Virus record (IMG/VR): IMGVR_UViG_3300042400_001382
Coordinates: 1 to 47,560 of that record
Reading direction: 5' to 3' (one strand)
DNA: 47,560 bases
Source of the DNA: a virus
Under the pieces are notes generated by a model. That model was not told the origin of the DNA and did no database searches. It saw nothing but the letters and a program-made list of their open reading frames with translations. The position numbers were made by a program, and so were the translations under genes. Every line of letters starts with the position of its first letter. Positions within the stretch are counted from its first letter, which is position 1. Shown piece after piece: positions 10,678-47,427 of this stretch.

Positions 10678-10690
10678 ATATTTTTAAACC

Positions 10691-12088: not shown

Positions 12089-12096
12089 ATGATTAT

Positions 12097-14772: not shown

Positions 14773-16847
14773 TATTTTGTATTTAAATTAACTAAAATTG
14801 AAGTTTCGTCCATAGCATCAAGAGTAATTATTTTATCTTTAGTTGAATAAAATATAGATGATTGTGGGGTAATAAAAATTGACATTACACCAAATGGATT
14901 TGTTGTGTCTGACGAAGATATGTAAGGAATAAAATTATTTAAAGTTACAGTACCTTTAATATAATTTATTTCGCCAATATTTGTTTGTAAAATATTTTTT
15001 ATTCCACCATTATAGTAGAAAGACCGTAATGGAACTACATTACCGCTTAGTGTAATGTAGACACTAGCTCCAGACCCACCGCCACCAACAATTTGAGCAA
15101 CAGCTTGCGTATAACCCGTACCAGAATTAACTATGGTAATCGAAGTAACAACTCCATTTACAACTTCTGCTGTTGCAATTGCTCCAGAACCATCACCGTA
15201 AATTTCTACAGTTGGTGCGGTTATATATCCCGAACCACCAGTTAAAACTGATATGGATTGAATTGAATTGATTAATATTGGAGATTCTTCAATAGCAACA
15301 TTATTTACTATTGATCCTGTATCAGGATCAATATAATTAAAATATTTACTAGATAAAGTTCCTTTTTGTATAGCAGTATCAAAATTTAGAGTTATTGAAT
15401 TATAAGATCCAAATATTGGATAAAATTTTTTCTCTAATTGTATAGTTGATTCGCAAGTAATTATCGAAGAATCTGTAGATTTTATTTTTGTAATTAAATC
15501 TGGTAAAGAAAAAATAGAATCAAATGTGTTTAATGTTGTATTAGAAAAAGATAAAATTTGTAATTTAATATAATTAATTAATTCTACATAAGTTAATGTT
15601 GTTATAGAATTATTATACAGTACATTTGATGAAATTTTAACGTAAGTATAATCAACATCAATAATTTCAGGAACAACAGTAACAATACTAAATGGTTTAA
15701 TAATTTCGTTAATTAATTTGTATTTTTGAGAAGTTGTTAGTGTATAACCCCCTTTTGGTTTTATGCAAATATACATTTTACCAAATTCTGGTGGATTATT
15801 TTCTTCACCACCCCAAACGTTAACTGCTTCTATTGGAATAATAGAAGAATTATTTTCTAATAATTGGATATAATCTGATTTTGTTACCGCTCTATTTTGA
15901 GCGGCATATGCTTTTGGTGCATTATATTTAATTGAATTTATTGATTCTTTTACTTTACCGCCAATCGCTGGTGTATTTTTTGTAATTTGTGTAGATAAAA
16001 ATGCGCTACCTGATGGAGTAATATTATCCATTAATGTGAATTGCGAAACTCCATTTGGTATATTTGCTTTTGTTGTTATATATTCAATAACAACAATATT
16101 ACCAGTTTCTAGTGCTTTCCCTAAAACCCCATCACCAAAATAAATTTCATAAAACCCGTCAATTGCTTCTTGGATAAAGAATACAGCTGTAGTTGAATCT
16201 AACGTTAAATGTTTTATTGATTGATTAAATTTCGTAAATGTCGTCGAACCAGAATTTGGGTAAACATACACAAATAAAGTTGATATATCAATATTAGAAT
16301 CGGGAATTTTAAATACTGTTGTCGGGTTTTCCAACAAATTTACTGAAAACGAATATTTTACAGGTTGACCTTGAGTCAACTCAACAGAAGAAAATGTTGC
16401 GGAATTTGACACGACAGGAACATTTATGGCTTCTTGAGTTACAAATGGATAATTTATATTGTCGATAGATTCAGAATAAAATTTAGTGTATTTTGGAATA
16501 GTGAGTGTAGCAGGAACTATTTTTGTTGGATCAAAATTAAATACTATATTAACCAAAGCTTTTGATGCTAAATCTGATGTTGGCGTATAATTTAATAATT
16601 TAGCATGAGAAACTACAGAACTGCGTTTTAAAGCAGTATCCAAAAACATTTCATTGGCAACCATATTTAAATAAAAACTATTGTAATGGGTATTGTATGC
16701 CAATAAATCAAGAATAGTTGACATAATTGAACTTTCGTAATCGTAATCTTGGATATTTGGTTGCGATTTTAAATAAGTTTTTAGATTTTGTTTAATTTTA
16801 TCAAAATCTAATTCTGCTATATTTATTGATGAGTTGGCTGTTGCCAT
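14772..16847 (-). CDS. 6: Baseplate wedge protein gp6 (baseplate J family)
   Basis: This 691-residue protein (T4 gp6 is 660) begins with an Asn/Ser-rich helix and the typical [20 protein letters not shown] motif, followed by [20 protein letters not shown]. It then has the baseplate-J signature around [20 protein letters not shown] (about residue 315) and [19 protein letters not shown] glycine-rich double unit ([20 protein letters not shown] ... NSGTGYTQ) lies near residues 530-595. gp6 forms the continuous inner ring of the baseplate that triggers sheath contraction. A late-promoter element (16875-16882) and an AGAGGA ribosome site precede the ATG. Confidence 0.9.
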
Positions 16848-16874
16848 CGATATTCCTCTAAATTATATTTTATA

Positions 16875-16882
16875 TATTTATA
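16875..16882 (-). promoter_or_regulatory. T4-type late promoter element before gp6
   Basis: The minus strand reads TATAAATA about 28 bases upstream of the gp6 ATG, and a good ribosome site follows. This is the canonical T4 late -10 element. In AT-rich DNA some matches occur by chance, so the placement just ahead of a virion gene is the main support. Confidence 0.5.
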
Positions 16883-17275
16883 TTATCGTAAACGAGTTAA
16901 TATAAAATTTGCGCTAAGCGGTTGGATTAAATTTTCTATATAAAATTCTATTGTTACTTCATAATAATTATAATCAAAATTTGCAACAACATCAACTGTT
17001 TTTAGTGTTGCTCTTCTTTCGTAATTTTTTATTGTATATTCTATTTCTTTTGCAATCGATTGAGCAGTAAATGGAGTCATTAACTCAAATAATAATTTTC
17101 TAATATTTGATCCATAATCAGGTTGAAACGGTTTTTCGTAATGGTTAGTTAAAATTAAATTTTTTAATGCTTTTACTACAGCCATTTGACCTGTTGAAAT
17201 CATTAAATCTTTTGTTACTGGGTGTGGATTGAACGTTAAGTCTATATCCGAATATCCATTTGTTATTATATCCAT
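16883..17275 (-). CDS. 25: Baseplate wedge protein gp25
   Basis: This 130-residue protein matches T4 gp25 (132 residues) in size and layout. It has an N-terminal GQMAVVKALKNLILTNHYEK segment, then PFQPDYGSNIRKLLFE, then the conserved arginine core (NYERRATL) and a C-terminal beta hairpin. gp25 is a small lysozyme-fold-like protein that couples the inner wedge to sheath polymerisation and is universal in contractile machines. The start overlaps the last base of the spike gene, so the two are translationally coupled. Confidence 0.92.
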   Translation of the reverse strand: MDIITNGYSDIDLTFNPHPVTKDLMISTGQMAVVKALKNLILTNHYEKPFQPDYGSNIRKLLFELMTPFTAQSIAKEIEYTIKNYERRATLKTVDVVANFDYNYYEVTIEFYIENLIQPLSANFILTRLR

Positions 17276-18291
17276 TAATTTAACCTAATATTTGGTGCTT
17301 TGATAACTGTATCGCCACCACTTTTATGATTTACTGTCCCACCAATATCGGTAGTCCAATTACCACCAACAGTAGCTGCCCAGTTCCCTTTGACATTAAA
17401 ATTTAAGTTACCATCAACTTTTAAATCGCAATTTTGTTTAACATAAACTTTTGCATTACCTTGTACTGTAACTGAACATTCCCCCATTACATAAACATGG
17501 TCGTCTTTCATTACAATAGTATATTTATCTTTGACTATTTTATTAACATGAGATCCGTCTGGGTGCGTTTCATTAAAAGTTCCTGACCTATGGTATAGAT
17601 GAGTTCTTTCGTAACCTGGAGTATCATCCAATTCAAAGTAATGACCAGATTCTGTACTGGTAACTTGATTATATGGGTATTGAGTGTTGTATTGAGTTGT
17701 AGGTTCTGTCCAATTTGCACCTAACGCATCCTGTACTGTGACAACACTATCTTGTTTAGATTTTATGATTGTTTCTGTAATACCTTCGTTTCTACTCAAT
17801 CGACTTGTAGTTGGTTCGTCTAATCTATTTGGATATGCTGTTGGTTTATCGTTTTCAGTCAGAGTTGCTCCAGAACCATCTGTATTATACGCAATAGATT
17901 TTGGTTTTTTTGGTGCTAATTTTAGTTGTTCATCTGTTCTTGGATCAGAAAATCCTGATTGCGGATTGGCGCTTTCTTCTGGTATTCCATGGAACATACC
18001 AAAAATTACAGGATATTGTGCTGCATCGCCGTCCATAAAGAACCCAATAACCATATCTCCTTCTTTTAATGTTGATGGCGTTGAATTAGAATTATTAATT
18101 GGGAATAATGGTTGAGCCCAAGGCAAAGATTCCGTTTCTATCTGAGTTTTTTGTTCTGAATGTAATCCCTTTATTCTTACTTTACATCTACCCAAATTTA
18201 AAGGATCAATTCTATCTTCAACAACCCCAATCCACCATACAAACCCATCATGACCTAAAAAATTTCCTCTTCTTGAATTGTTAAATTCCAT
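17275..18291 (-). CDS. 5: gp5-like baseplate spike without a lysozyme domain
   Basis: This 338-residue protein has an N-terminal OB-fold region (WWIGVVEDRIDPLNLGRCKV, then GDMVIGFFMDGDAAQYPVIF). After a linker comes a C-terminal spike-like beta region of short valine-rich strands (YVMGECSVTVQGNAKVYVKQ) ending in GGDTVIKAPNIRLN. T4 gp5 (575 residues) carries a muralytic lysozyme domain between these parts. Here the interval is a short linker rich in Pro, Asp and Thr with no lysozyme motif. The protein should form the trimeric membrane-piercing spike. Cell-wall digestion may be supplied instead by the domain in the tape-measure-like protein. Confidence 0.85.
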   Translation of the reverse strand: MEFNNSRRGNFLGHDGFVWWIGVVEDRIDPLNLGRCKVRIKGLHSEQKTQIETESLPWAQPLFPINNSNSTPSTLKEGDMVIGFFMDGDAAQYPVIFGMFHGIPEESANPQSGFSDPRTDEQLKLAPKKPKSIAYNTDGSGATLTENDKPTAYPNRLDEPTTSRLSRNEGITETIIKSKQDSVVTVQDALGANWTEPTTQYNTQYPYNQVTSTESGHYFELDDTPGYERTHLYHRSGTFNETHPDGSHVNKIVKDKYTIVMKDDHVYVMGECSVTVQGNAKVYVKQNCDLKVDGNLNFNVKGNWAATVGGNWTTDIGGTVNHKSGGDTVIKAPNIRLN

Positions 18292-19640
18292 TATCTATAT
18301 CCTGAAACTTTTTGGTTATTGAAATCTTCATAAGATTTCGGTGTCGATTCTTTACAAATTTCTATACAAGTAAAAAATTTATTTTCTTGATTAAATAAAT
18401 GCCTCACAGCTGTAACAAGGTATTTACCAGAAAAATATTCGTCGTTTTCTTTTTGGCGATTAGAGTTATTATACGAAATTTGAGGTAAATTAAATTCAAT
18501 TACTCTTCCTATTGTCATATCAACATCACCAGGAATTAATAATTTCAATCTATTTGTACAAAATAATGCTAATTGAGCAGTCCTTAGTGGGACCGTTTCT
18601 TCTATTCGATTTTCATTGATCGTTACGTTTTTATTTTTGATGTATTTATTTTCGCTTTGGCCTGTTGTAGTCATGCAAAATTTAACCACACCTGGAGTTT
18701 CCGTCGCTGTTTCCCCTAGTCTATTTGTTCCAGATGTTGGTAGAGAACCTTTATTTAACGAAGCAGCATCCATTTTTTTACTATAATCGTCATAATTAAA
18801 TGTTGTTTCGCCCAATTTTAATCTTACTGGGTCTACTGTATGCATTTTATTTGATAAAGCACCAGATCTTACTGCAGTGATAGAATCAAAACTTTTAATC
18901 TGTTCATATTGTAACACATTAACTAATTCTTTATTAAAATCTAATACCATATTATTTTTAGGATCATTTAATCCTTTTACATCATAGTGATATTTTCTAT
19001 ACACATTTTGTTGAAATAAGGTTAACATAGATTTAAATTTAAATCCGTCTTTATCTTCATAAAATAAAAATGGAGAACCAACATTTTTTTTATCGTCTGA
19101 TTTAGCGAAAGTGGACAACCAATTTATTGATTGTATTGGTTTAAAATTTGGTATAACGATATCACGTAATCCGATTGTTTTATCAATCTCAACTTTTTTT
19201 TCTGGTATTTTTAAATATTCGGTACATATACTTTTTATAATATCAGTAACCGTTGTATTTTTATATGATTTAGAAATTTTATATTGCTCATTAATTAATA
19301 ATTCTTCGGAACAAAAATTTATAACATAATTTTCGTTAGTTGCTTTTGTTGCTATTCTGTTAGAGATATTAGAAATTCTAAAATTCTTTTTTATTGGTTC
19401 TTCTAATCCAGGTTTATCAATTTCTAATATTAAAACTTCATACCCTTGCAATTGCATAATATTAATATAACCCATAGAGTCATTTATTAATAATGAACCG
19501 CTAATCCCAGTTGCAAAAATATCTTCAAAATAATTAAATTCGACAATTAAATATTTAAATTCCATTGCTTGACCAGAAGATCCTATAATTTTACAGGATT
19601 TTATTGCAATATCTTGAGCAGTTAATAATCCATCAGACAT
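18291..19640 (-). CDS. gp27-like baseplate hub protein
   Basis: This 449-residue protein lies directly upstream of the spike gene and overlaps it by one base. Its N-terminal half has the beta-barrel pattern of tail hub proteins (KYLIVEFNYFEDIFATGISG, then INFCSEELLINEQYKISKSY). A central segment VIPNFKPIQSINWLSTFAKS resembles the gp27/gpD hub family. A DTSFLFYEDKDGF-type stretch (here GSPFLFYEDKDGFKFKS) and a C-terminal barrel region follow. T4 gp27 (391 residues) forms the trimeric collar that binds gp5. Position and fold pattern support this, but the identity is moderate. Confidence 0.7.
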   Translation of the reverse strand: MSDGLLTAQDIAIKSCKIIGSSGQAMEFKYLIVEFNYFEDIFATGISGSLLINDSMGYINIMQLQGYEVLILEIDKPGLEEPIKKNFRISNISNRIATKATNENYVINFCSEELLINEQYKISKSYKNTTVTDIIKSICTEYLKIPEKKVEIDKTIGLRDIVIPNFKPIQSINWLSTFAKSDDKKNVGSPFLFYEDKDGFKFKSMLTLFQQNVYRKYHYDVKGLNDPKNNMVLDFNKELVNVLQYEQIKSFDSITAVRSGALSNKMHTVDPVRLKLGETTFNYDDYSKKMDAASLNKGSLPTSGTNRLGETATETPGVVKFCMTTTGQSENKYIKNKNVTINENRIEETVPLRTAQLALFCTNRLKLLIPGDVDMTIGRVIEFNLPQISYNNSNRQKENDEYFSGKYLVTAVRHLFNQENKFFTCIEICKESTPKSYEDFNNQKVSGYR

Positions 19641-19641
19641 A

Positions 19642-20289
19642 TTATAATTCCATTAGCGTTTTAAATTCTTGCTCGAATTGAGAAACATATTCCAATTTTA
19701 ATAATTTTATGTTTCTTTTTTGTTCGTTCAATTCAGCTTCATAATCATATATTGAAATTGTTTCTGTTGTTTGTTCTAATGTAATATTTCCTTCTTGTAC
19801 GACCATATCTGCATAATTAAATGTCGGATCAGTATAACTACCATTGTATGCATTTTCGTCAATAAAAAATTTTTGTGAAGTAGAAACACCACTAATACCA
19901 TCTGTAGTTGTTAGTATTGCTCTATATCCAGGAGGATTTATATTTATAGTTTTTCTTGCATAATTTGCTCCAGAAACAATAGGATCAGACAATTGTCCTT
20001 GAATTTTATATTTTTTGTCTAGATAATTTTCAAAATTTAAATACGATAATGGAAAATCAAAATTGGCATCAAATATGTTATTAATTAGCATTATAATCCA
20101 ATGTTTTTCAGGATCACCATAATATTTTGATGCAACAATTTCAGGGGTATCTCCATCTTGAAGAGGATAAATGTAATACAACGATACTTTATCGGTATAA
20201 TCTGTTCTTAAGTATATTCTGGTTACTATATCTGTTGCAATTTTATTGTTATAAATTACTTTTGGATATTTTGCAAAAAATGAAGCCAT
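19642..20289 (-). CDS. 53: Baseplate wedge protein gp53 (LysM-like)
   Basis: This 215-residue protein (T4 gp53 is 196) begins MASFFAKYPKVIYNN. It contains a LysM-like segment at about residues 42-67, PLQDGDTPEIVASKYYGDPE followed by KHWIIMLINN, then FDFPLSYLNFENYLDKKY. This series is diagnostic of gp53, which binds gp6 and gp25 and completes the wedge so wedges can join around the hub. The C-terminus is a charged helix. It is spaced two bases from its neighbours on either side. Confidence 0.9.
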   Translation of the reverse strand: MASFFAKYPKVIYNNKIATDIVTRIYLRTDYTDKVSLYYIYPLQDGDTPEIVASKYYGDPEKHWIIMLINNIFDANFDFPLSYLNFENYLDKKYKIQGQLSDPIVSGANYARKTININPPGYRAILTTTDGISGVSTSQKFFIDENAYNGSYTDPTFNYADMVVQEGNITLEQTTETISIYDYEAELNEQKRNIKLLKLEYVSQFEQEFKTLMEL

Positions 20290-20291
20290 AT

Positions 20292-21266
20292 TTAATATCC
20301 CTGTTCTCTAATTTTATTTTTATCAAGAATTTCTATTTCTTGGAATTGAAGAGTTAATCTCGTTTGGACTGGCATACCATCTTCGTGAGTAACCCACCCC
20401 TGTGGAGCATAATCAGTAACAATAGCAGTTAATACAGCAGGGGCTAATTTATGGATATTGGTATTTATTTTTCCATCTTTATAAAAATTTATATCAAATC
20501 TTGATGGTACAATAAAATATCTCCCTCCACTAGCTGAATCAATTTCTGGTGCAGCGTGAATTTTAAACATTTGTATAATATTTCTTATGGAAGCGGTTTC
20601 TTGTTGATTCCTTGGTGTAAACAAAAAATCAAATTGAAATGCCCTAAATTCGATTTGCGTAAACAATACTTCCATTTGAGGATTAATAGCCATCCCTTGG
20701 GTGTTTAATCCAATACCGGAAATATCTTGTGCATTTTTCCCACCAAATTTTGCTGCACCCAATTCCATACCAAGATTTTGAATAGTTTGCCCACCACCAT
20801 CATTTGCATCTACAGCTGAAGCTACAGCCGCAGCTTGTCCTAATGCTCCCATTGAATTAGTTAAACTCGTATGCGTATAAGACATATTTTGCGAGATAGA
20901 TATTGTATCTGGTGTATACAGAGAAATACTTGCAACTTGAGTTACTGCAGGAGGTGTTGAAATAAAATTCCATGTTTTCGTAACACCACTACTGATTAAA
21001 TTTAATGGAGTAAAATCGCTATTAGGATCAAGAAATGCCTCTGCAGTACTTCCTATAAGAGAAGAAGCAGAATCAATTATATTTTTTAACATCCCAGATG
21101 AATCAACCGAAGAAGAAGATTCATTACTATAAGAAGATTTTTTTGGTACACCAATAGAAAACGTGACCCAATGACCTTTTCGCGACGATCCTAAATCTGA
21201 TGGATAATGATGCATATCCATCCCATATTGATCTTGATATAATCTGTCTAATGGTCCAACTAACAT
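20292..21266 (-). CDS. Tail-tube cap or initiator (gp48/gp54-like)
   Basis: This 324-residue protein starts MLVGPLDRLYQDQYG and carries a Ser-rich low-complexity stretch, then SPRNQQE-type homology: FLFTPRNQQETASIRNIIQM, then GGRYFIVPSRFDINFYKDGK. It ends with TRLTLQFQEIEILDKNKIRE. The order TPR..., SRFD..., and a final strand with Q.EI is that of the T4 gp48/gp54 group. These proteins sit on the hub and start tail-tube polymerisation. It is the first gene of the leftward operon, with TAAGGAAAATT before the ATG and a late promoter element 36 bases upstream. I cannot choose between gp48 and gp54 by eye. Confidence 0.75.
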   Translation of the reverse strand: MLVGPLDRLYQDQYGMDMHHYPSDLGSSRKGHWVTFSIGVPKKSSYSNESSSSVDSSGMLKNIIDSASSLIGSTAEAFLDPNSDFTPLNLISSGVTKTWNFISTPPAVTQVASISLYTPDTISISQNMSYTHTSLTNSMGALGQAAAVASAVDANDGGGQTIQNLGMELGAAKFGGKNAQDISGIGLNTQGMAINPQMEVLFTQIEFRAFQFDFLFTPRNQQETASIRNIIQMFKIHAAPEIDSASGGRYFIVPSRFDINFYKDGKINTNIHKLAPAVLTAIVTDYAPQGWVTHEDGMPVQTRLTLQFQEIEILDKNKIREQGY

Positions 21267-27763: not shown

Positions 27764-28693
27764 TTAATCATCGCCGATTAAATTAGAGAAATAACTCATA
27801 TCATCATCTTCGTCATCAATTACTGCTGTAGCGAATGATGCTGTTGTTTTCTTTTCAACAACAGCCGATTGAATGAATTGTTCATCTTCAACTTCATCAA
27901 GAGATTTTGCTGTAAAATCTTCCGCAGTTTTATATTTGGTTTGATTAGATTGACCTAACACTCTTTTCAAACGATTTTCCAACTCAACATAAGATTTAAA
28001 GTTTTTAGGATCTAAAATATCTTTTAAAGAATATTCAGATTTCCAAATTTTTTCTAGTTTGTCATCATCATCAAATAACGCCGATGCACTATCAAATTCT
28101 GCTAAATCATAATTTTGATAACCATCAACTTTACGAATTTTTAATTTAAAATTCGCTCCAGTCCATAAATCAAATGGATCTACTGGTTTATCATCTTCAA
28201 ACTGCGGGTTCATCGCTTGAGTGATTTTCTCAAAGATTTTTTTACCATAAATATATTTGAAGACTTTACCTTCGTTTTCTGGATGTTTTGAATCTTTAAC
28301 AACATAAATATTAGACACGTAATGTAATCTACGTTTCTGTTTTCTAGCTTGTTCTTTATTTGCTTCGATACCAGATTCCCACAACTCGCTATTATATTTA
28401 CCTAGTGGATCATCTAAACCAATAGAAGTTAAAGATTTTTCAATATACCAACCACCTGGACCTTGAAAACCATGATCATGATATTTAATCCATGGAAGAC
28501 CATCTGAATCAACATCTTGAGGAGGAGTAGGCAGGAAACGGATAACAGCATATCCATTACCACTTTTATCTAGTTCGCATTTCCAATATTCATCAGCATC
28601 ACTGTTTTGATTATTCGAGCCCATAGATTCAACAGCTTTTGCTAATTTATCCAAGTTTGAACCAGACGCTTTTTTTAATTTACTAAAATCCAT
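27764..28693 (-). CDS. 32: Single-stranded DNA-binding protein gp32
   Basis: This 309-residue protein (T4 gp32 is 301) has NGYAVIRFLPTP, HGFQGPGGWYIEKSL, NIYVVKDSKHPENEGKVFKY and GANFKLKIRKVDGYQNYD, all gp32 landmarks, plus an acidic tail (DDEDDDMSYFSNLIGDD). gp32 coats ssDNA and organises replication, recombination and repair. The region that binds zinc in T4 (CSSTHGDYDSCPVC) reads KSLTSIGLDDPLGKY here, so the zinc cysteines are absent. AAGGTGTAAAAT precedes the ATG. It is last in a leftward replication block ending at the shared terminator. Confidence 0.95.
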   Translation of the reverse strand: MDFSKLKKASGSNLDKLAKAVESMGSNNQNSDADEYWKCELDKSGNGYAVIRFLPTPPQDVDSDGLPWIKYHDHGFQGPGGWYIEKSLTSIGLDDPLGKYNSELWESGIEANKEQARKQKRRLHYVSNIYVVKDSKHPENEGKVFKYIYGKKIFEKITQAMNPQFEDDKPVDPFDLWTGANFKLKIRKVDGYQNYDLAEFDSASALFDDDDKLEKIWKSEYSLKDILDPKNFKSYVELENRLKRVLGQSNQTKYKTAEDFTAKSLDEVEDEQFIQSAVVEKKTTASFATAVIDDEDDDMSYFSNLIGDD

Positions 28694-34518: not shown

Positions 34519-34776
34519 ATGACTACTTTTTCTAAAGAAGATATTAAACAATTATTGCAAAATAATGTTGGTACTGTAACTTTCACTAAAACTGATGGTA
34601 CAGAACGAGTTATGAAATGCACTTTACAATCTCATGTGTTACCTATTACTGAAATTGTTGAGGGTAAAGTAATTAAAACCGAAAATCCTAATGTGTTATC
34701 TGTTTGGGATTTAGATAATAATGGTTGGCGTTCTTTCAAAATTGATTCTGTACTTTCATTAAATATTAATATTTAA
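34519..34776 (+). CDS. Small protein with SH3-like DUF2693 pattern
   Basis: This 85-residue protein reads TTFSKEDIKQLLQNNVGTVT, then FTKTDGTERVMKCTL and VWDLDNNGWRSFKIDSVLS. The pattern of a helix, a TDG.ER.M.CT strand and W.....WRSF....V resembles DUF2693-type small phage proteins. The specific function is unknown. It has its own promoter with an overlapping palindrome, so its expression is probably regulated. It meets the HNH gene tail to tail with a four-base overlap. Confidence 0.65.
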   Translation: MTTFSKEDIKQLLQNNVGTVTFTKTDGTERVMKCTLQSHVLPITEIVEGKVIKTENPNVLSVWDLDNNGWRSFKIDSVLSLNINI

Positions 34777-35522
34777 AGATATTGTTTGAATTCTGGAGCA
34801 ACCTTAATTAAATTAGCTTTATCATAACAGTGCTTTGACTCAATAAGACAGAAAAATTGTTTTCCGAATATTGAATTTTCTGCTGCATTTTTGATGTGTG
34901 TTTTTGATAATGTTCTGCCTGGATACCATTTTTCTGGGATTATTTGATTTTTAGGAATTCGTTTATTATCGATACCATTAGTTATCCAAATTTTATTAAA
35001 ACAAGGATTATTTTCCCCTTGTTTCGCGGATTTCATTTTTTGTATAGATTTATCGGAATGAGTCTTATTATAGAATGGGTTATTTTCGCCTTTCATATTT
35101 TGCGAAAGAGATGTTGATCTTATTCTTTTTACCCATCCATATTCTTTATTAGTTAATCTTTTATTATATTTACTGTAAACAAACATCATATTTGCTACAT
35201 AAATTAATGATTCCATGTAATCGAATGTGGAGGAAAAACATTTTATTAATAATAAATGGACTGTTAAGTGTTCTTCTGGAGTTAATTTAACTAAATTATT
35301 TTTGTTATTTCCTGTTCCACCTAAGAATCCAATTTTACCTTTTCTTTTTCTTTTGGTGAAAAAACATTCAGGGACAATATGGTGAGTTTCTGTGTATCCA
35401 AGTATTTCTCTATTTACAGCATTTTCTATGAGTGAAATATACCGCTTTAAATATTTACTCGCCTCTCGTGATTGTATAGAAAGGGTAGAAATAAGATTAA
35501 TATAAGTATTTTTGCTGGACAT
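34773..35522 (-). CDS. HNH homing endonuclease with NUMOD-like DNA-binding repeats
   Basis: I chose the ATG at 35522 (MSSKNTYINL), with GAGA six bases upstream. An ATG four codons earlier is also possible. The product (249 residues) has the HNH core TETHHIVPECFFTKRKRKGK, then NNLVKLTPEEHLTVHLLLIK. It is followed by NUMOD3-like repeats (KGENNPFYNKTHSDKSIQKM and GENNPCFNK) and a C-terminal helix-turn-helix-like tail. These are typical free-standing homing endonucleases that cut a cognate site in related phages. It is on the opposite strand from its neighbours, immediately beside the topoisomerase gene, and AT-rich, consistent with a selfish insertion. Confidence 0.8.
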   Translation of the reverse strand: MSSKNTYINLISTLSIQSREASKYLKRYISLIENAVNREILGYTETHHIVPECFFTKRKRKGKIGFLGGTGNNKNNLVKLTPEEHLTVHLLLIKCFSSTFDYMESLIYVANMMFVYSKYNKRLTNKEYGWVKRIRSTSLSQNMKGENNPFYNKTHSDKSIQKMKSAKQGENNPCFNKIWITNGIDNKRIPKNQIIPEKWYPGRTLSKTHIKNAAENSIFGKQFFCLIESKHCYDKANLIKVAPEFKQYL

Positions 35523-35582
35523 AGGTATTCTCAATTACTAGTGAAAATATGTTTAGAGTCAATGGATGGTGACACATCGCGA

Positions 35583-35617: not shown

Positions 35618-37486
35618 ATGACAAAACACATACAACAAACATATAAAGTTCTTGATGAAATAGAACACGTAAGAGCTCGCACTGGAATGTATTGCGGGTC
35701 TACTTCAATCCAAACAAGCCAAGAATGGGTTTATAATACTCAATCTAAAAATATGGAAAAGCGGGATATTTCATATATTCCCGCTTTTATTAAAATCTTT
35801 TCTGAAATTCTTGATAATTCTATTGACGAAGGAAAAAGAGCGCCTGATGTATTAAATCAAATTAAAGTAGATATTACATTCGATGAAATTTCTATTCAGG
35901 ATAATGGTCGAGGTATTCCCGTAGAAATTCATGATCAAACTGGAACATATATTGCAGAAACAGTTTTTTCTAATTTGCGCGCAGGTTCCAATTTTAATGA
36001 TGATGAAGATCAATCATTAATTGGTACTAATGGTGTTGGTTCAACATTAACTAATGTTCTTTCTACAAATTTTAAAATTGAATCTTGCGACGGTAAGAAA
36101 AAATTAACTCAAGATTTCTGGAATGGAATGCGAGAGCGTTCAGAACCTAAGATTAAAGAATATTCTAAAAATGGAACTAAAATTACATTCACGCCAGATT
36201 ATGAATTCTTTAAGTTAACAGGTTTAGATGCAGACCATATTTGTAAAATACAAAAGAAAGTGCTTGATGCTGCTGCAAATAATTTAAATATTAAATTTTA
36301 TTTTAATGGCGAATTAATTAAATTTAAATCATTTGATGATTATATTTCGTTATATTCTACTGAGTATTACACAGATAATACTGATGATTGGAAAGTTGGT
36401 ATCAGTTCTTCGGATGGATTTGAGCAAATTTCTTTTATCAATTCGGTAGAAACTTATCAAGGTGGAACTCATGTCAATTATGTTGTTGATCAAATCACCA
36501 CTAAACTTCGTGAACACTTTAAGAAAAAACATAAAGTGGATGTAAAACCTAGTGATATTAAAAATCATTTTAGAGTTTATATTGCTGGTACAGTAAATCG
36601 ACCAAGGTTTTCTAGTCAAACAAAAGAAAATATGATTAGTTTGCCAACCGAATGGAAAACTTCCTGGAGCGTTAGCGATAAATTTATTAAAAATATTCTT
36701 AAATCGGAGATTATTCAGTCTATTTTAGATTGGGTTCAGGCTAAAGAACGTGCTGCTGAAGCTGCTGAATTGCGTAAAGCTAATAAAAATTTAGATAAAG
36801 CAGATCCACGTAGAGTTGAAAAGTTCCATGATGCATCTACCAAACAACGTAATGAAGCAATGTTATTTTTAGCAGAAGGAGATTCAGCGTTATCTGGTCT
36901 GTTATCAGGTAGAGATCCTAAGACAATGGCAGCATTTCCGTTAAGAGGAAAACCTATCAATGTTTATCCTATGGAATTAAAAGATATTCTTGAAAATAAA
37001 GAATTCAAAAATATTATGACAATTACCGGATTACAATTTGGTATTCAAGTTAAATCTGTTGAAGATATTCGTTTTGGTAAAATTGTATTATCAACTGACC
37101 AAGATTTAGATGGATTTGGTATTCGTGCTTTACTGTTAAATGCGTTTTACAAATTCTGGCCAGAGTTATTCTCGTTGGGAGTTATTCATATTTTAAATAC
37201 ACCGATTGTTAAAGTTAAGTATAAAAAAGATACTTTAAGTTTTTATGATTTAAGTGTATTTGAACGATGGAAAGAACAACATGTTGGTGAGAAATATGAT
37301 TCCAAATATTATAAAGGATTAGGAACTTCTTCTAGTAAAGAGTGGAAAGAATATTTATCTGATTTAAGTAATAATTTGGAAAAAGTTACAACAGAATTTG
37401 GTGATAGTGATATTTTCAAGTTACAGTTTTCGAAAGAAATTGGTAGCACAGATAAACGTAAAGAATGGTTGGGGATCGAAGGATGA
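35618..37486 (+). CDS. 39: Type II DNA topoisomerase large subunit (fused gp39-gp60)
   Basis: This 622-residue protein has the GHKL ATPase motifs EILDNSIDEG, DNGRGIP and GTNGVGSTLTNV in the first third, a transducer domain, and Toprim residues in LAEGDSALSGL and STDQDLDGFGIR. T4 splits this subunit into gp39 (516 residues) and gp60 with a 50-nucleotide bypass. Here one unbroken frame covers both, as in many other T4-like phages. With gp52 it relaxes and decatenates phage DNA at replication forks. No ribosome site precedes the ATG, but homology begins right after it (YKVLDEIEHVRARTGMY), so the start is secure. Confidence 0.95.
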   Translation: MTKHIQQTYKVLDEIEHVRARTGMYCGSTSIQTSQEWVYNTQSKNMEKRDISYIPAFIKIFSEILDNSIDEGKRAPDVLNQIKVDITFDEISIQDNGRGIPVEIHDQTGTYIAETVFSNLRAGSNFNDDEDQSLIGTNGVGSTLTNVLSTNFKIESCDGKKKLTQDFWNGMRERSEPKIKEYSKNGTKITFTPDYEFFKLTGLDADHICKIQKKVLDAAANNLNIKFYFNGELIKFKSFDDYISLYSTEYYTDNTDDWKVGISSSDGFEQISFINSVETYQGGTHVNYVVDQITTKLREHFKKKHKVDVKPSDIKNHFRVYIAGTVNRPRFSSQTKENMISLPTEWKTSWSVSDKFIKNILKSEIIQSILDWVQAKERAAEAAELRKANKNLDKADPRRVEKFHDASTKQRNEAMLFLAEGDSALSGLLSGRDPKTMAAFPLRGKPINVYPMELKDILENKEFKNIMTITGLQFGIQVKSVEDIRFGKIVLSTDQDLDGFGIRALLLNAFYKFWPELFSLGVIHILNTPIVKVKYKKDTLSFYDLSVFERWKEQHVGEKYDSKYYKGLGTSSSKEWKEYLSDLSNNLEKVTTEFGDSDIFKLQFSKEIGSTDKRKEWLGIEG

Positions 37487-37705: not shown

Positions 37706-39013
37706 ATGAAAGAAATTACAATTGATAGATTATTTCAGGAACAATATCGTCCATATGCCAACTACGACAATGAGCGTTCATTACCAAATTTAATTGATGG
37801 ATTAAAAATTACTCAACGTAAAGTTTTGTATACTTGTTTGTTGAAAAATACAACAAGTGAAATGAAAGTCGCTCAATTAGCGTCCTCAGTTGCGTTTGAG
37901 ACGCATTATCATCATGGTGAAGCGGGTATCGGTGGCGTAATTTGTAACCTTGCACAGGATTTTGTTGGATCTAATAGTTTAAATTGGCTGGAACCTATTG
38001 GTCAGTTTGGTTCTAGATTAAGTCCAATTCCAGCAGCTCATCGTTATATTTTTACAAAATTGTCTAATAATTTTAGAAAGTATTTTCGTAAAGAAGATGA
38101 TATTATTTTGGAGCATTTATACGAAGACGACTATAAAATTGAACCCAATTTTTTTATTCCAGTCCTCCCTGGAGTCCTGTTAAACAGTACCCAGGGGATT
38201 GGTACAGGATTTGCTTCTACGATTCTCTCTCGCGATCCACAGGAACTCTCGTTCTATATTAAAAATAAGATGTCTGGTGGAATTCAAAATTATACATTAT
38301 TGCCTTATTTTTCTGGATTCAAAGGTTCGGTTGAACGAGTTGAAGAAAACAAGTATAAAATTAGTGGCTGTATTGAGAGAGTTAGTGCTACTCAAATTAA
38401 AATTACTGAATTACCAGTTGGCATGTATCTTGATGATATTAAAAAACAATTAAATAAATTAATTGAATCTGATTCTATTAAAGATTATGAAGATAATTCT
38501 ACAGAAGAAAATTTTGACATAGATGTGTACTACCAACGGGGAATATTAAATAATTTGCTTGACGAAACCTTACTTGATAGGTTAAAATTAACTACAACAG
38601 TAACGGAAAATTTAACTTGTTGGTTACCGACTGGTAAGTTACGAAAATTTAGTTCTGTTGTTGATATTATTGATTATTTTATTGAGTGGCGTTTAAGTAA
38701 ATATTCAGAACGTATTTCTAGATTACTTGATGTTTTAAATGATGATGTTAAAAGTTTAAATGAGCGAATTAGATTTATTAATTTTTATTTAGAAAATGTT
38801 ATTTTGTTTAAAAATGCATCAAAACTTGAGTTAATTTCAATTTTAGACGAAAATAATTTTGATGATAAATTATTAGATATGAAAATTTGGAATTTAACTG
38901 GAGATCGTATTAAAGAATTGGAAAAACAAGTAAAAGATTTAAATTCTAAGAAAAAAGAGTTACAAAAAACAACTAATGTACAACTATATTCAAAAGAACT
39001 GGAGACACTATGA
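37706..39013 (+). CDS. 52: Type II DNA topoisomerase medium subunit gp52
   Basis: This 435-residue protein (T4 gp52 is 442) begins with RPYANYDNERSLPNLIDGLK, then QRKVLYTCL and THYHHGEAGIGGVICNLAQD. The catalytic tyrosine lies in AAHRYIFTKLS (Tyr114). The C-terminus forms a coiled coil. The subunit cleaves and rejoins DNA together with the large subunit. It follows the 73-residue gene by one base and overlaps the next gene by four (ATGA). Confidence 0.95.
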   Translation: MKEITIDRLFQEQYRPYANYDNERSLPNLIDGLKITQRKVLYTCLLKNTTSEMKVAQLASSVAFETHYHHGEAGIGGVICNLAQDFVGSNSLNWLEPIGQFGSRLSPIPAAHRYIFTKLSNNFRKYFRKEDDIILEHLYEDDYKIEPNFFIPVLPGVLLNSTQGIGTGFASTILSRDPQELSFYIKNKMSGGIQNYTLLPYFSGFKGSVERVEENKYKISGCIERVSATQIKITELPVGMYLDDIKKQLNKLIESDSIKDYEDNSTEENFDIDVYYQRGILNNLLDETLLDRLKLTTTVTENLTCWLPTGKLRKFSSVVDIIDYFIEWRLSKYSERISRLLDVLNDDVKSLNERIRFINFYLENVILFKNASKLELISILDENNFDDKLLDMKIWNLTGDRIKELEKQVKDLNSKKKELQKTTNVQLYSKELETL

Positions 39014-39213: not shown

Positions 39214-40065
39214 ATGAATTATTTAATTATAGATTTAAATCAAGTTGTAATTAGTGGATTGCAATCTCAAGTTAAATCTAACAAAATAAATGTTTTGAAT
39301 AAAGATTTATGTAGACATTTAGTTCTTAATTCAATTAGAGCTATTGTCTACAAATTTAAACGAGATTATCCTAATGTAATTATTGCAGCAGATTCTAGAA
39401 AATATTGGAGAAAAGAAGTATTTCCTTTCTACAAAGCAGGTAGAAAAAAAGCTCGCGAAAAATCAACACTAGATTGGACTTTAATTTTTGAAGTTTTGGA
39501 TGAAGTTCGTACTGATTTAATTAATATTTTTCCTTATAAAGTTATTTTAGTTGATAGAGCTGAGGCTGACGATATTATTGGTACTCTTGTTCCTAGGTTA
39601 TCTGCTCACGGTAATGTTTTAATTGCTAGTTCGGATGGAGACTTTAAACAATTACACAAATATGGTAATGTTAAACAGTACAATCCTATGTTGGGAATAT
39701 ATGTTACTTCGCCTAATCCAGAATTAGAATTAAAAGAAAAAATCTTAACAGGTGATAGTGGAGATGGTATCCCTTCTTGTTTGTCTAATGATAATGTTTT
39801 GGTGGAAGGTATCAGGCAAAAGCCATTAACGGCTAAGAAAAAAGCTGAATTGTTATCGCAAGATTTAAATAATCCTGATATTGAGTTTTATAGAAATATT
39901 CAACGTAATAAATTGTTAATTGATTTGACTATGACCCCGCAGGATATTAAAGATAAAATTGTTGAGGAATTGGAATCTGACCAAACTGGTTCTAAACAAT
40001 TGGTAATGAAGTATTTTATTGAAAAAAGGTTAAATAGATTATTGGAGTGTATTGATGAATTTTAA
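39214..40065 (+). CDS. rnh: RNase H / 5'-3' exonuclease (FEN family)
   Basis: This 283-residue protein (T4 RNase H is 305) has the metal-binding carboxylates of the FEN fold: IIDLNQ at the N-terminus, IIAADSRKYWRKEVFPFYKA, DRAEADDIIG, SSDGDFKQL and TGDSGDGIPS. The insertion FVEG-type loop (here NVLVEGIRQKPLTAKKKAEL) is typical of T4-like enzymes. It removes RNA primers from lagging-strand fragments and works with gp32 and the clamp. AAAGAGAATATT precedes the ATG. Its last codons overlap the next small gene. Confidence 0.93.
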   Translation: MNYLIIDLNQVVISGLQSQVKSNKINVLNKDLCRHLVLNSIRAIVYKFKRDYPNVIIAADSRKYWRKEVFPFYKAGRKKAREKSTLDWTLIFEVLDEVRTDLINIFPYKVILVDRAEADDIIGTLVPRLSAHGNVLIASSDGDFKQLHKYGNVKQYNPMLGIYVTSPNPELELKEKILTGDSGDGIPSCLSNDNVLVEGIRQKPLTAKKKAELLSQDLNNPDIEFYRNIQRNKLLIDLTMTPQDIKDKIVEELESDQTGSKQLVMKYFIEKRLNRLLECIDEF

Positions 40066-40207
40066 TGACATTGAATTAGAAGAAACAATTGGTGATATTA
40101 TAGATAATGTTGCTGATATATTTGGTACTGTAGATGCTTCTTTAGTGGAAAAATTGCGCGATATTGCTCTTGAATTTGCGTCTGATTTTGATCGCGATTA
40201 TTATTAA
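40055..40207 (+). CDS. Small acidic protein (50 aa)
   Basis: An ATG 11 bases before the RNase H stop opens MNFNDIELEETIGDIIDNVA ... FASDFDRDYY (50 residues). GGAGTG lies upstream inside the RNase H gene. The product is strongly acidic and helical. It converges with the HNH gene, with the stops overlapping by four bases. Function unknown. Confidence 0.6.
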   Translation: MNFNDIELEETIGDIIDNVADIFGTVDASLVEKLRDIALEFASDFDRDYY

Positions 40208-40527
40208 TTTTTATAATAATTACAAAATAATTGTATCTCTTTATCTGTGAGATCATTTTTAGCTCGATTGGCTTTGACTGAAATAATTTCTATGTTATCT
40301 ATTTCATATCCTTTCGAGCTATCTATTCTATCGAAACTATAACTATCGTCTTGTGCTGCTCCACGATGCCATTTTAAAGGTATTCCCAACACAGGACATG
40401 TTATAGGAAAACTTAAATTATTTAACTCTGGAATTGTTAGGGTAAACTCTATTTTTCTACGTTTAGCAGATTGTTTAAGTCTTTGATAAATTTCCCGAAT
40501 TTCTGGCGGTTTTATTCTACAATTCAT
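40204..40527 (-). CDS. Small HNH endonuclease
   Basis: This 107-residue protein shows the compact phage HNH pattern CPVLGIPLKW ... SYSFDRIDSSKGYEIDNI ... ANRAKND, with a basic N-terminal helix (IYQRLKQSAKRRKIEF). A single cysteine replaces the usual pair in part of the zinc site, so activity is uncertain. It is opposite in strand to its neighbours and lies between RNase H and small early genes, like the other HNH gene near the topoisomerase. A homing or recombination role is inferred. Confidence 0.75.
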   Translation of the reverse strand: MNCRIKPPEIREIYQRLKQSAKRRKIEFTLTIPELNNLSFPITCPVLGIPLKWHRGAAQDDSYSFDRIDSSKGYEIDNIEIISVKANRAKNDLTDKEIQLFCNYYKN

Positions 40528-43121: not shown

Positions 43122-43150
43122 TTGACTAAATCGAACTTGTACGGTATAAT
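43122..43150 (+). promoter_or_regulatory. Strong sigma70-type promoter of the pmoC unit
   Basis: TTGACT (43122-43127), exactly 17 bases and TATAAT (43145-43150) form a near-perfect promoter. The -35 again has GCTTGAC. Transcription starting near 43157 would cover three small genes and pmoC. Confidence 0.85.
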
Positions 43151-43182
43151 AAATAAGAGGAAACTAAAATTTGAGGCATAAT

Positions 43183-43625: not shown

Positions 43626-43634
43626 GGAGTACTA

Positions 43635-44096
43635 ATGAAATCGTTTAAACAATTTACGGATGATATTGTTGAAGATAAAGATCCATGCTGGAAAAATTAT
43701 AAAATGTTGGGTATGAAGAAAAAAGGATCAAAAATGGTTCCTAATTGCATACCTGAAGAAGTTGAAGAAATTTTTGAAGTTACTGGCACTGAATTGTATG
43801 AAGATTGGCAAGAACTTGACGAAGAAGCTGAAAAAAACGGCAAACGAGTTAAATTAAATAAACCGTTTTTAACTCCAGGTGGTCCAAAGAAACGTTCAGT
43901 GTATGTTAAAAATGATTCTGGTAATGTCGTTAAAGTAAATTTTGGTGATCCAAATATGGAAATTAAACGAGATAGTCCTGAGCGTAGAAAAAGTTATAGA
44001 GCTAGACATCATTGTTCCGAACCAGGTCCAAAATGGAAAGCTAATTATTGGAGTTGCAAATACTGGAGTTCTACCCCAGTATCAAAACTAGATTAA
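43635..44096 (+). CDS. Conserved phage protein with Cys/Trp C-terminal motif
   Basis: This 153-residue protein has two parts. The N-terminus (DPCWKNYKMLGMKKKGSKMV, then PNCIPE) is a short motif seen in phage head-associated proteins. The acidic middle (residues about 45-70) is followed by a basic C-terminus: LNKPFLTPGGPKKRSVYVKN, then VKVNFGDPNMEIKRDSPERR, then RHHCSEPGPKWKANYWSCKY. The C-terminal pattern is familiar from T4-type virion-associated proteins. I infer a conserved phage gene, function unknown. AAGGAGTACTA precedes the ATG. pmoC starts 75 bases after it. Confidence 0.65.
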   Translation: MKSFKQFTDDIVEDKDPCWKNYKMLGMKKKGSKMVPNCIPEEVEEIFEVTGTELYEDWQELDEEAEKNGKRVKLNKPFLTPGGPKKRSVYVKNDSGNVVKVNFGDPNMEIKRDSPERRKSYRARHHCSEPGPKWKANYWSCKYWSSTPVSKLD

Positions 44097-44127
44097 AGAA
44101 TCTCCCCGCGATCTAGAAAACACAACC

Positions 44128-44143
44128 GATACAGTAATGTATC
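44128..44143 (+). promoter_or_regulatory. Small hairpin in the pmoC leader
   Basis: GATACA-GTAA-TGTATC forms a 6-bp stem about 30 bases before the pmoC ATG, followed by AATTTTAAT. It may be a weak terminator or mRNA-stability element. No separate promoter for pmoC is evident between 44097 and 44171. Confidence 0.35.
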
Positions 44144-44171
44144 AATTTTAATCTGAAATAAGGAGTCTTAC

Positions 44172-44933
44172 ATGGCTACTACATCTGAAATAATTAAAGC
44201 AAGTGCTACAGAAAAACCATTGTTAAATAAATTAAATTTGACATTAGGTATTGCTCTGTATTTAATATTCTATTCATTTATTAGGTGGTATGAAGGCGTT
44301 TACGGCTGGTCTGCGGGATTAGACTCATTTGCGCCCGAATTTGAAACCTATTGGATGAATATGTTGTATATCGAAATCGTTGCAGAAGTAGTATTATTTG
44401 CAGGTATTAATGGTTATATTTGGAAATCTCGTGATCGCGCAATGATTGCTGGTGCGGCATTAGCTCCTCGTGAAGAATTACGTCGTCATTTTACTCACTG
44501 GACATGGTTGGTTTGCTACGGTTGGGCTATCTATTGGGGTGCTAGTTACTTTACCGAACAAGACGGTACATGGCATCAAACTATCGTTCGTGATACTGAC
44601 TTTACTCCAAGTCATATTATCGAATTCTATTTGAGTTATCCAATCTATATCATCACTGGTACAGCTAGTTTTATGTATGCAAAAACAAGATTGCCTACTT
44701 ATCAACAAGGTTTACATTTGATGTATTTGATCGCGGTTATCGGTCCTTTCATGATCTTACCGAACGTTGGTTTAAACGAATGGGGGCACACATTCTGGTT
44801 TATGGAAGAATTATTTGTTGCTCCATTACATTATGGGTTTGTATTTTTTGGTTGGGCTGCTCTCGCAGTAATGGGTGTTGTGAACACCGAAGTAATGGCA
44901 ATTTCTAAATTATTGAAAAATGATTTAGTATAA
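44172..44933 (+). CDS. pmoC: Particulate methane monooxygenase subunit C (PmoC)
   Basis: This 253-residue protein is full length for PmoC (about 250-290). It has landmarks RWYEGVYGWSAGLDSFAPEF, ETYWMNMLY, PREELRRHFTHWTW, AIYWGASYFTEQDGTWHQ, TDFTPSHIIEFYLSYPIYII, NEWGHTFWFMEELFVAPLHY and about six membrane helices. The C-subunit copper-site ligands known in methanotrophs are present as Asp131, His135 and His148. The sequence is closer to gammaproteobacterial PmoC than to AmoC by recall. It would assemble with host PmoA and PmoB, which are not in this window, in the membrane complex that oxidises methane to methanol. AAGGAGTCTTAC precedes the ATG. GC content is locally high (31 of 60 bases at 44281-44340), in line with host origin or constraint. 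Confidence 0.97.
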   Translation: MATTSEIIKASATEKPLLNKLNLTLGIALYLIFYSFIRWYEGVYGWSAGLDSFAPEFETYWMNMLYIEIVAEVVLFAGINGYIWKSRDRAMIAGAALAPREELRRHFTHWTWLVCYGWAIYWGASYFTEQDGTWHQTIVRDTDFTPSHIIEFYLSYPIYIITGTASFMYAKTRLPTYQQGLHLMYLIAVIGPFMILPNVGLNEWGHTFWFMEELFVAPLHYGFVFFGWAALAVMGVVNTEVMAISKLLKNDLV

Positions 44934-44944
44934 GTTAGAAGAAA

Positions 44945-44967
44945 GGAGGCTTTAAGCCTCCTTTTTT
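44945..44967 (+). terminator. Strong intrinsic terminator after pmoC
   Basis: GGAGGC-TTTAA-GCCTCC followed by six T (44962-44967) lies 11 bases after the pmoC stop. It closes the transcript that begins at 43122-43150. Confidence 0.92.
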
Positions 44968-45025
44968 AATATAAATTTTTATTTTACCTAAATACAATAA
45001 AATATTTTTATTTAACGGTAGAATA

Positions 45026-46168
45026 ATGAGCGAATTAAATGATTTCCTAAACCTTGTATCAGAAGCAAAAAAAGAATCTGAAAGTAAGATAGGCAATCAT
45101 ACGATTATCGATTTGTCAGAAAAGATTAAAACTAATCCATTTTCTAATTTATTAGAAACTACAAAAATTATAGCGCCAGTTGCTGAAATTCTAACAGAAA
45201 ATCCAGTATCCGAGCCGTTTCCTCAAAAAATAACTCCTCTCAAAAAACCAAAACTTCAGCGAGTATCTTTAGATTTCAAGGATACATCTTTTCTTGATAT
45301 TTTAGAATCTGAGATAGTTAAATCAAAAGAACAAGAAAAAGAACAGCAAGTCAAAGAAGAAATATTTACTGAATTTTTTGAATCATTAGCTGTTAATCTG
45401 AACCCGATTGAATCTACCGTTACTGATGATTCAATTGTTGAAACAGAATCAATCAGGGATAATGAAATTTTACCTGATGTTGATTTAGGCGAAATTGTTG
45501 TTGAAGATAATGTTGTAGATGATAGTATATCGGTTGCTGAAATTTCAACTCAATCCATTGTAGCGCATCCGGATGAACAAAAAATTGTAGAAGAAATAAA
45601 GAAACTGGATTTAACTGATCCGTCTCACTACGATAAACTGTTTAAAACAAATACAGACCATTTTTCTCAACCAGATGCGCCTAAAATTGATCCGACTATT
45701 AAAGCTTTAACTGATAAAGTTAAATATATGGAAGATTGGTTAACCAAAATATCCATGGCTGGTCCAGGATCCGGTGAAGTTAATCTTAGATATCTAGATG
45801 ATGTTGATAGACCTAGTATCTATGATGGTCGATATTTACGGTACAATGATTCCATCAAAAAATTTGAGTTTGCGGAAGTAAATCCTCATGATATTATCTA
45901 CACCACCACATTAGTTACCACACCAACATACACAGTAGATAACGATGATTATTATATTGGTATAGATTATGCTGGTCCAGTAACAATAACATTACCATTA
46001 ACACCAAGTTCAGGTAGAATGTTAATTATAAAAGACGAATCTAGTAACGCAGAAACTAATCCTATTTTAGTCCTAGGCAATGTAGATAACGATGCTGGTG
46101 GATTCATTATTCAAACTAATAACGGTGCCACTCAATTAATATACAGAAGTGGTTGGAGAATTGTATGA
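45026..46168 (+). CDS. Virion protein, probable fibre or neck-fibre component (380 aa)
   Basis: The first 200 residues are acidic and low in predicted structure (EKEQQVKEEIFTEFFESL and nearby). Around residue 230 a coiled-coil-like segment (LTDKVKYMEDWLTKISMAG) leads to a beta-rich C-terminal domain: RYLDDVDRPSIYDGRYLRYN, DDYYIGIDYAGPVTITLP, GRMLIIKDESSNAETNP and LIYRSGWRIV. That domain is typical of phage fibre proteins. The ribosome site is weak (AACGGTAGAATA). Its stop overlaps the next ATG. Confidence 0.65.
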   Translation: MSELNDFLNLVSEAKKESESKIGNHTIIDLSEKIKTNPFSNLLETTKIIAPVAEILTENPVSEPFPQKITPLKKPKLQRVSLDFKDTSFLDILESEIVKSKEQEKEQQVKEEIFTEFFESLAVNLNPIESTVTDDSIVETESIRDNEILPDVDLGEIVVEDNVVDDSISVAEISTQSIVAHPDEQKIVEEIKKLDLTDPSHYDKLFKTNTDHFSQPDAPKIDPTIKALTDKVKYMEDWLTKISMAGPGSGEVNLRYLDDVDRPSIYDGRYLRYNDSIKKFEFAEVNPHDIIYTTTLVTTPTYTVDNDDYYIGIDYAGPVTITLPLTPSSGRMLIIKDESSNAETNPILVLGNVDNDAGGFIIQTNNGATQLIYRSGWRIV

Positions 46169-47427
46169 CCTATTTGTTTAAACCGTATGATGGCGAAATT
46201 AAAAATGATATTGGTAATCCCATACCAGTTTCATTTCCTAATGGAGTATCAGATGCATTTGGTAGACAACGAGTATCTGAGCCATTTACATTGGGTGATT
46301 ATAAACATCTATATGGAATTGATCCTACCTTCATTGATAAATCTGCTAATGGTGGGTCAATAACCTTTGTTAAAAATAAAGCGTGTTGTACCATGACAAC
46401 CACTAGTGATCCTGCTAGTTATATTGTACACCAAACCAAATTCTATCATCATTATATGCCTGGCAAGTCACAAGTAATAATGAGTAGTGTCAACTTTGGT
46501 CTTCCTACAGCAAATGTCATTAAACGTACTGGATATTTTGACGATAATGATGGTATCTATTTTGAACAAGCTGGCGATGGTACATTGTCATGGGTTATAA
46601 GAAGTTTTGTTTCTGGCGCTCCAGTTGAAGTTAGAAAAACTCAATCAGAATGGAATTTAGATACGGTATCATGGTTAAATATTGCCAACACGCAATTAGT
46701 AGTGATCGATTTTCAGTGGTTGGGCGTTGGTAGAGTACGTGTTGGATTTGCACATCAGGGAAATATTGTATATGTACACGAATTCTTACATAGCAATAAT
46801 TTACCAACCGTTTATATGAGTAATCCAAATCTTCCTGTTAGATGTGAGATTAGAAACATCGGTACTACTACTGGTGGTTCTATGGATCAAATCTGTTCTA
46901 CTGTATTCAGTGAAGGTGGATATGTTGAAGCTGGACAGGATTGGTCATCGAGTACACCAACATTAAAAACAATCGCTGCTGGCGTTACTGCGCCAGTTAT
47001 GGCAATTAGATTAAAAAATACTTTCCAAACATATTCGAATAGAATTATTGTTCGTATGGGTAATTTGAATGTATTCAGCGATGGTGCCAATATTAAATGG
47101 CGATTGATAAAATTACCAGCACAATCTTATCTAACAGGTAATACATGGGTAGATGTTAATTCTGGTTCTAGCGTTCAATATAACGTTACTGCTACTGCAT
47201 GGACAGATGGTCAAGAAATGGATGCTGGATTTGTTGGTGCATCAACTCAAGGTAGTCAAAAAGCTGGCGGAGCACCTGCGAGTAATTTACCGTCAACTGC
47301 AAAGAAAAATTACATAGTACAAAACTTTGATAGTACGGATTCCGAGATATTCCTGGTAGTTGCATCAAATTTAGGTGCACAATCTACTAATGTTGGGGTT
47401 GCCATGCAATGGCGTGAAGTATATTGA
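46165..47427 (+). CDS. Virion structural protein (420 aa)
   Basis: I choose the ATG that overlaps the previous stop (GTATGA, 46165). A TTG four codons earlier is less likely. The protein begins MTYLFKPYDGEIKNDIGNPI and has DAFGRQRVSEPFTLGDYKHL, then FYHHYMPGKSQVIMSSVNFG, KRTGYFDDNDGIYFEQAGDG and WLGVGRVRVGFAHQGN. This is a large beta-sandwich pattern seen in many tailed-phage virion proteins of fibre or decoration type. The C-terminus (DSEIFLVVASNLGAQ, then MQWREVY) completes the fold. The exact role is not known. Confidence 0.7.
   Translation: MTYLFKPYDGEIKNDIGNPIPVSFPNGVSDAFGRQRVSEPFTLGDYKHLYGIDPTFIDKSANGGSITFVKNKACCTMTTTSDPASYIVHQTKFYHHYMPGKSQVIMSSVNFGLPTANVIKRTGYFDDNDGIYFEQAGDGTLSWVIRSFVSGAPVEVRKTQSEWNLDTVSWLNIANTQLVVIDFQWLGVGRVRVGFAHQGNIVYVHEFLHSNNLPTVYMSNPNLPVRCEIRNIGTTTGGSMDQICSTVFSEGGYVEAGQDWSSSTPTLKTIAAGVTAPVMAIRLKNTFQTYSNRIIVRMGNLNVFSDGANIKWRLIKLPAQSYLTGNTWVDVNSGSSVQYNVTATAWTDGQEMDAGFVGASTQGSQKAGGAPASNLPSTAKKNYIVQNFDSTDSEIFLVVASNLGAQSTNVGVAMQWREVY

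Follow-up and report, generated by a model that had tools for sequence, protein, structure and literature searches.

The window analysed here is the complete 47,560-base IMG/VR virus record, a 47.6-kb fragment of an incomplete genome. It contains one match to the AmoC family, an intact and intronless pmoC (Table 1; related viral loci and contigs carry L numbers). The 253-codon ORF bears out the first-pass annotation, which had called the gene full-length: residues 9–250 of the product match Pfam AmoC (PF04896) at E 7.3e-124, with a score of 412 bits against a curated cut-off of 26.7 and coverage of profile positions 6–244 of 245. Among PDB entries, 7s4l and 6cxh (pMMO C subunit) match best, with about 456 bits over the full length. 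No PmoC match was found in the INPHARED phage collection, and an AlphaFold2 model built on 28 sequences reached a mean pLDDT of 57, too poor for use.

The contig is of T4 type, carrying baseplate wedge, hub and cap genes, genes for a DNA end protector and for head closure, and genes for a gp32-like single-strand DNA-binding protein, a gp59-like loader, topoisomerase II subunits and RNase H. The first-pass annotation had placed T4-type replication and baseplate genes on both sides of pmoC; their T4-type character holds, but they lie on the left only, and the right flank consists of a tail-fibre-like gene followed by a virion structural gene. The 153-aa product encoded just upstream of pmoC contains the motifs CWKNY...NCIP and RRKSYRAR. 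Small proteins with a CWKNY...NC(V/I)P-like pattern adjoin pmoC in two lineages (L186, 11822–12331, and the window, 43635–44096), and a similar CWKNY-type protein occupies the same place in L187 (10914–11318), which has no pmoC. Elsewhere in the window, a 1231-aa protein (24029–27724) has a long internal repeat (EYQPRKSDEQAKKTQIGAVSTQQ...), present twice.

Table 1. Features of the window, and introns and homing endonuclease genes at pmoC of related loci
Feature	Position	Strand	Evidence or remark
Baseplate/tail block, T4-type (wedge subunits, hub/lysozyme, tube cap)	10691..21266	-	
Single-strand DNA-binding protein, T4 gp32-like	27764..28693	-	phrog_224, E 4e-109
Homing endonuclease with NUMOD3 motif	34773..35534	-	phrog_655; Pfam NUMOD3
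Topoisomerase II large subunit, T4 gp39-like	35618..37486	+	phrog_543, E 1.5e-182
Topoisomerase II medium subunit, T4 gp52-like	37706..39013	+	phrog_551, E 7.8e-129
T4-type RNase H (5'-3' exonuclease)	39214..40065	+	Pfam 5_3_exonuc_N and RNaseH_C
Endonuclease VII/HNH-like, possible free-standing homing endonuclease	40204..40527	-	phrog_3322, phrog_1035
153-aa phage protein, function unassigned, 5' of pmoC	43635..44096	+	phrog_7595
Structured 5' leader of pmoC	44097..44171	+	sequence comparison
Ribosome-binding site AAGGAG, 6 nt before ATG	44160..44165	+	kept in L002, L003, L005
pmoC, intact, intronless, 253 aa, ATG start	44172..44933	+	ORF, Pfam, PDB matches, ligands, dN/dS
Intrinsic terminator directly 3' of pmoC	44942..44967	+	hairpin conservation
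Tail-fibre-like protein, right flank of pmoC	45026..46168	+	phrog_30742
Virion structural protein	46153..47427	+	phrog_1645, E 9e-103
Intron in pmoC	L022 10659-10916		site G222/F223 (also L023)
Intron in pmoC	L033 10643-10893		site A217 then P218
Intron in pmoC	L035 9784-10032		site F208 (also L037, L039)
Intron in pmoC	L036 10615-10863		site F208
Intron in pmoC	L040 10124-10376		site between G45 and W46
Introns in pmoC	L041 ~10616-10864, 10916-11167		sites ~F210/M211, G227/W228
Homing endonuclease genes	L184 11975-12628; L036 11023-11673; L014 10783-11583; L004 1317-2114	-	3' of pmoC

Since pmoC has been reported often to confuse assemblies (Chen et al. 2020, PMC7674155), an assembly chimera, with a bacterial pmoC joined to a phage contig, was considered. 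Four separate metagenome records in IMG/VR bear on this: L001 is identical to the window over 44123–47560, L002 is 94.2% identical over 42434–47534, and L003 and L005 are 93–94% identical from about 39.2 kb through pmoC, with the same, more diverged, right-hand neighbours thereafter. In L002, L003 and L005, contigs from other metagenomes, pmoC thus lies between the same phage genes, in agreement with the earlier view that it sits on a phage genome. An assembly error would not place pmoC beside these neighbours again and again in copies that have diverged, so the join is real. Moreover, no host pmoA follows the window pmoC, and its third-position GC (0.30) differs from that of host pmoC (0.45–0.50); it falls between these values and those of the tested phage genes (0.14–0.22), an intermediate value that would be expected while a gene adapts to its phage genome. 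The chimera is refuted, with a negligible chance of being correct.

The gene is flanked by signals of its own. One leader hairpin is formed by GATACA/TGTATC at 44128–44143 and reads GATGCA/TGCATC in L003 and L005; across the window, L002, L003 and L005 the pairing of the leader hairpins is kept through compensatory changes. Compared with L002, the window leader is missing 11 nt, which make up one arm of the second hairpin. An Rfam search of the leader gave no credible family match. On the 3' side, the terminator region (44934–44975) has a folding energy of -18 kcal/mol, and compensatory substitutions preserve the terminator stem in L004, L005 and L014. No clear T4 late promoter was seen 5' of pmoC, where TATAAATA is absent. 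The leader motif AGAATCTCCC also precedes pmoC in L015, which has a different backbone. Published pmoC-phages show high expression of pmoC alongside their late genes (PMC7674155).

A PmoC tree of 107 rows, the kind of check proposed in the first-pass annotation, identifies the window gene as a true PmoC nested among bacterial ones. The window, L001, L003 and L005 form a phage clade (support 98) inside an 18-row set (support 97) with Methylomonas and Methylomonas-like MAGs, and the window PmoC is 90% identical to its nearest bacterial counterparts. As far as sequence can tell, this shows that the window pmoC descends from a Methylomonas-like PmoC, and the host is most likely a gammaproteobacterial methanotroph, Methylomonas or a close relative, with the limit that a captured gene marks its source and not certainly the present host. 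The host CRISPR spacers suggested earlier as a check did not materialize: in 37 genomes of the genus Methylomonas and 237 of the family, each compared with a single 20-kb section of the window, none linked the phage to a host, and the six short matches examined lay outside CRISPR-like arrays. Published sources of viral pmoC are Methyloparacoccus, Methylocystis and Methylobacter (PMC7674155) and several proteobacterial methanotroph genera for 25 viral pmoC genes (Nat Commun 2024, PMC10904782), of which Methylobacter, Methylomagnum and Methylocystis are named; with the Lac Pavin paper (PMC9875498), the sources across the three papers comprise Methyloparacoccus, Methylocystis, Methylobacter and Methylomagnum. 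The name Methylomonas is absent from the main texts of all three, so that, within the open-access main texts, the Methylomonas-like source lineage is a modest novelty.

All residues expected to bind copper are kept in the window PmoC. N202, H206 and H220 are those we take, from pMMO structures, to be the CuD ligands; the CuC ligands, D131, H135 and H148, are residues named in PMC7674155. All six are invariant in the 158 phage and bacterial sequences compared. Between the window pmoC and those of L003 and L005, dN is 0.05 and dS 0.51–0.57 (ratio about 0.09), with ratios of about 0.03–0.08 in other phage pairs and 0.06 in one bacterial pair. Purifying selection and conserved metal ligands support a functional product, and the window PmoC looks functional on these grounds.

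At 12 of the 183 positions that are near-invariant in 80 bacterial PmoC sequences the window protein departs from them, in residues 3–15, 91–98 and 250, leaving the core unchanged; changes in phage PmoC were likewise found concentrated at the termini by Chen et al. (PMC7674155). A 3-aa insert at residues 93–95 (window 44448–44456) reads AGA in the window, L001 and L002, and SGQ at the same place in L004 and L038. The positive charges around it suggest that it is probably located in a cytoplasmic loop. The insert is thus common to two phage lineages, the nearest kin of each being without it, which may reflect intragenic exchange or two gains. It is conceivable, if unlikely, that phage PmoC alters the enzyme instead of sustaining it, for example through changed cytoplasmic contacts, at the N-terminus and at the insert in the 91–98 loop, that either escape host control or turnover or poison the host complex: the departures are confined to the N-terminus, the 91–98 loop and the C-terminus, and the insert is present in 5 phage rows and 0 of 80 bacterial sequences, but the sister phages L003, L005 and L014 are without it, which speaks against an adaptation general to phages.

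Neither pmoA nor pmoB was seen as an ORF in this 47.6-kb window, as noted in the first-pass annotation, nor were pmoA (PF02461) and pmoB (PF04744) found in 21 related phage contigs of 16–372 kb, which may be fragments; the same searches recovered both in methanotroph genomes used as controls. Chen et al. 2020 (PMC7674155) described pmoC-phages, and the window adds a new one to this published kind, in keeping with the earlier remark that pmoC is known on phages. It shares with those large T4-related myoviruses a PmoC close to the bacterial protein with changes mostly at the termini and, within the 47.6-kb fragment, a pmoC that stands alone without pmoA and pmoB. It differs in that the source is Methylomonas-like rather than Methyloparacoccus, Methylocystis or Methylobacter. 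The published genomes are of at least 159 kb. The viral genes of PMC10904782 are similarly host-derived pmoC on viruses of methanotrophs, in a main text without Methylomonas or introns. The viral amoC of ammonia-oxidising archaea, as cited in PMC7674155, is alike in that the virus carries subunit C only, but is set apart, by its description there, through other hosts and viruses and through ammonia instead of methane.

Inserts of about 250 bp interrupt pmoC in 9 of 80 viral loci, some of which are near-copies of each other. The Rfam group I intron family RF00028 matches those of L022, L023, L033, L035, L036, L037, L040 and L041 (which has two inserts) with 64–94 bits, in L033 and L035 only when the insert stretch was searched alone; L039 has the same insert as L035, and RF00028 was not reported for it in a whole-locus search. 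In-silico splicing, with the rule that the cut follows a T and the intron ends in G, was tried in seven loci; the remaining two, L023 and L037, resemble L022 and L036. Full-length PmoC was restored in L022, L033, L035, L036, L039 and L040, and in L041 upon removal of two introns, the first junction being ambiguous by one or two bases. Because the predicted junctions were chosen by the best restored protein, these proteins are biased to a good result by construction, and the Rfam match is the independent evidence for introns. Six sites were found in all, given in window residue numbers in Table 1; they fall mostly in codons of the active site, five of them in or just behind the segment with the CuD ligands. 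No interruption was seen in 80 bacterial genes, in a search favouring full-length matches. Chen et al. (PMC7674155) described four phage pmoC genes (TP6_1, BML_3, BML_4 and LR_6) as 'fragmented', and in LR_6 the stretch between the pmoC pieces is little transcribed, which would fit an excised intron. Group I introns, a term absent from the main text of that paper in the form 'intron', probably explain these fragmented genes. If spliced, pmoC copies scored as broken may yield full PmoC, which bears on earlier counts.

A homing-type endonuclease gene, encoded on the strand opposite to pmoC and 22–36 bp 3' of it, is present in eight loci, both intron-bearing (L035, L036, L037 and L039) and intronless (L004, L014, L018 and L038). 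It is missing from the intronless sisters L006, L008 and L011, and also from the intron-bearing L022, L023, L033, L040 and L041. The products from L184 (same contig as L039) and L014 match homing endonuclease families of PHROGs; a Pfam search of these two gave no hit. In the psbA gene of cyanophage S-PM2, a free-standing endonuclease and a group I intron aid each other's spread, a process called collaborative homing (PMC6083498). The pmoC loci resemble this psbA/F-CphI system in that i) the phage is of T4 type, ii) a host-derived energy gene contains an intron, and iii) a free-standing homing endonuclease is adjacent, the last two in relatives of the window only. They differ in the gene, pmoC, and in the endonuclease, which is GIY-YIG-like, not Endo VII-like, and a candidate for cutting the intronless allele at the intron site. 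The window itself has neither an intron nor a homing gene next to pmoC. Its pmoC differs from that of L002 at 2 of 762 positions, compared with 99 of 1275 in the next virion gene, which suggests that the pmoC stretch was exchanged recently.

When gene maps were aligned on the RNase H gene, three pmoC arrangements emerged: 1) in the window clade (window, L002, L003 and L179/L180), pmoC is flanked by the 43635 ORF and the tail-fibre gene; 2) in a sister backbone (L183–L186 and L192; RNase H 79% identical), it lies 115 bp behind RNase H; 3) in a third backbone (L016–L021 and L196–L199; RNase H 56%), pmoC again follows RNase H, at a distance of 338 bp. Each has relatives with an empty site: L193–L195 for the first, with the flanking genes close together, L181, L187 and L188 for the second, and L200, L203, L205 and others for the third. 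Comparison of L181 with L186 delimits a module of about 1.4 kb (pmoC and a DUF6321 gene) between AATAAACT and AAAAGGAGC. Forcing the window-clade and L006-clade PmoC into one clade was rejected (p-AU 0.0017, a guide only, because the groups were chosen after the first tree had been seen). Together, these comparisons show apparently independent acquisitions of pmoC, at neighbouring positions, by phages of related backbone, which, like the introns and the endonuclease genes next to pmoC, goes beyond published work on pmoC-phages. We tentatively propose, as a possibility somewhat short of an even chance, that pmoC has been captured repeatedly in the replication-module region of independent T4-type lineages, that introns and homing endonucleases spread it in the manner of psbA, and that the 'fragmented' copies splice to intact ones.

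The same data could be read as pmoC being kept mainly as mobile, homing-assisted cargo that gene conversion moves from phage to phage and that brings little metabolic benefit or none. The introns at six sites and the adjacent endonucleases in relatives, the near-identity of pmoC in the window and L002, and the different positions of pmoC among kin would agree with this; we nevertheless consider it quite improbable, given the strong purifying selection on PmoC, the fact that several phage lineages have each retained a bacterial pmoC independently, and a window copy free of intron and adjacent homing gene.

We judge it likely that a T4-type phage of a gammaproteobacterial methanotroph captured a host pmoC, which it retains as an auxiliary metabolic gene. 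The ribosome-binding site and terminator of its own suggest that the phage would express PmoC from its own unit; the protein would then enter the host membranes and pair with the PmoA and PmoB of the host, in place of its PmoC or in addition to it, and oxidation of methane to methanol could continue during phage replication. We infer who the host is, that the gene is expressed, that its product assembles with the host subunits and that the phage benefits, and the metabolic role of the window pmoC is put forward as a hypothesis, the one published by Chen et al. 2020 (PMC7674155), that phage pmoC keeps or remodels host methane oxidation. For the pmoC-phages, the window contributes a source lineage that is Methylomonas-like, along with signs that selection acts on PmoC, and the repeated capture together with the intron comparison is the part worth following. 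By carrying a portion of the main methane-oxidising enzyme, such phages may influence the amount of methane that lakes release.
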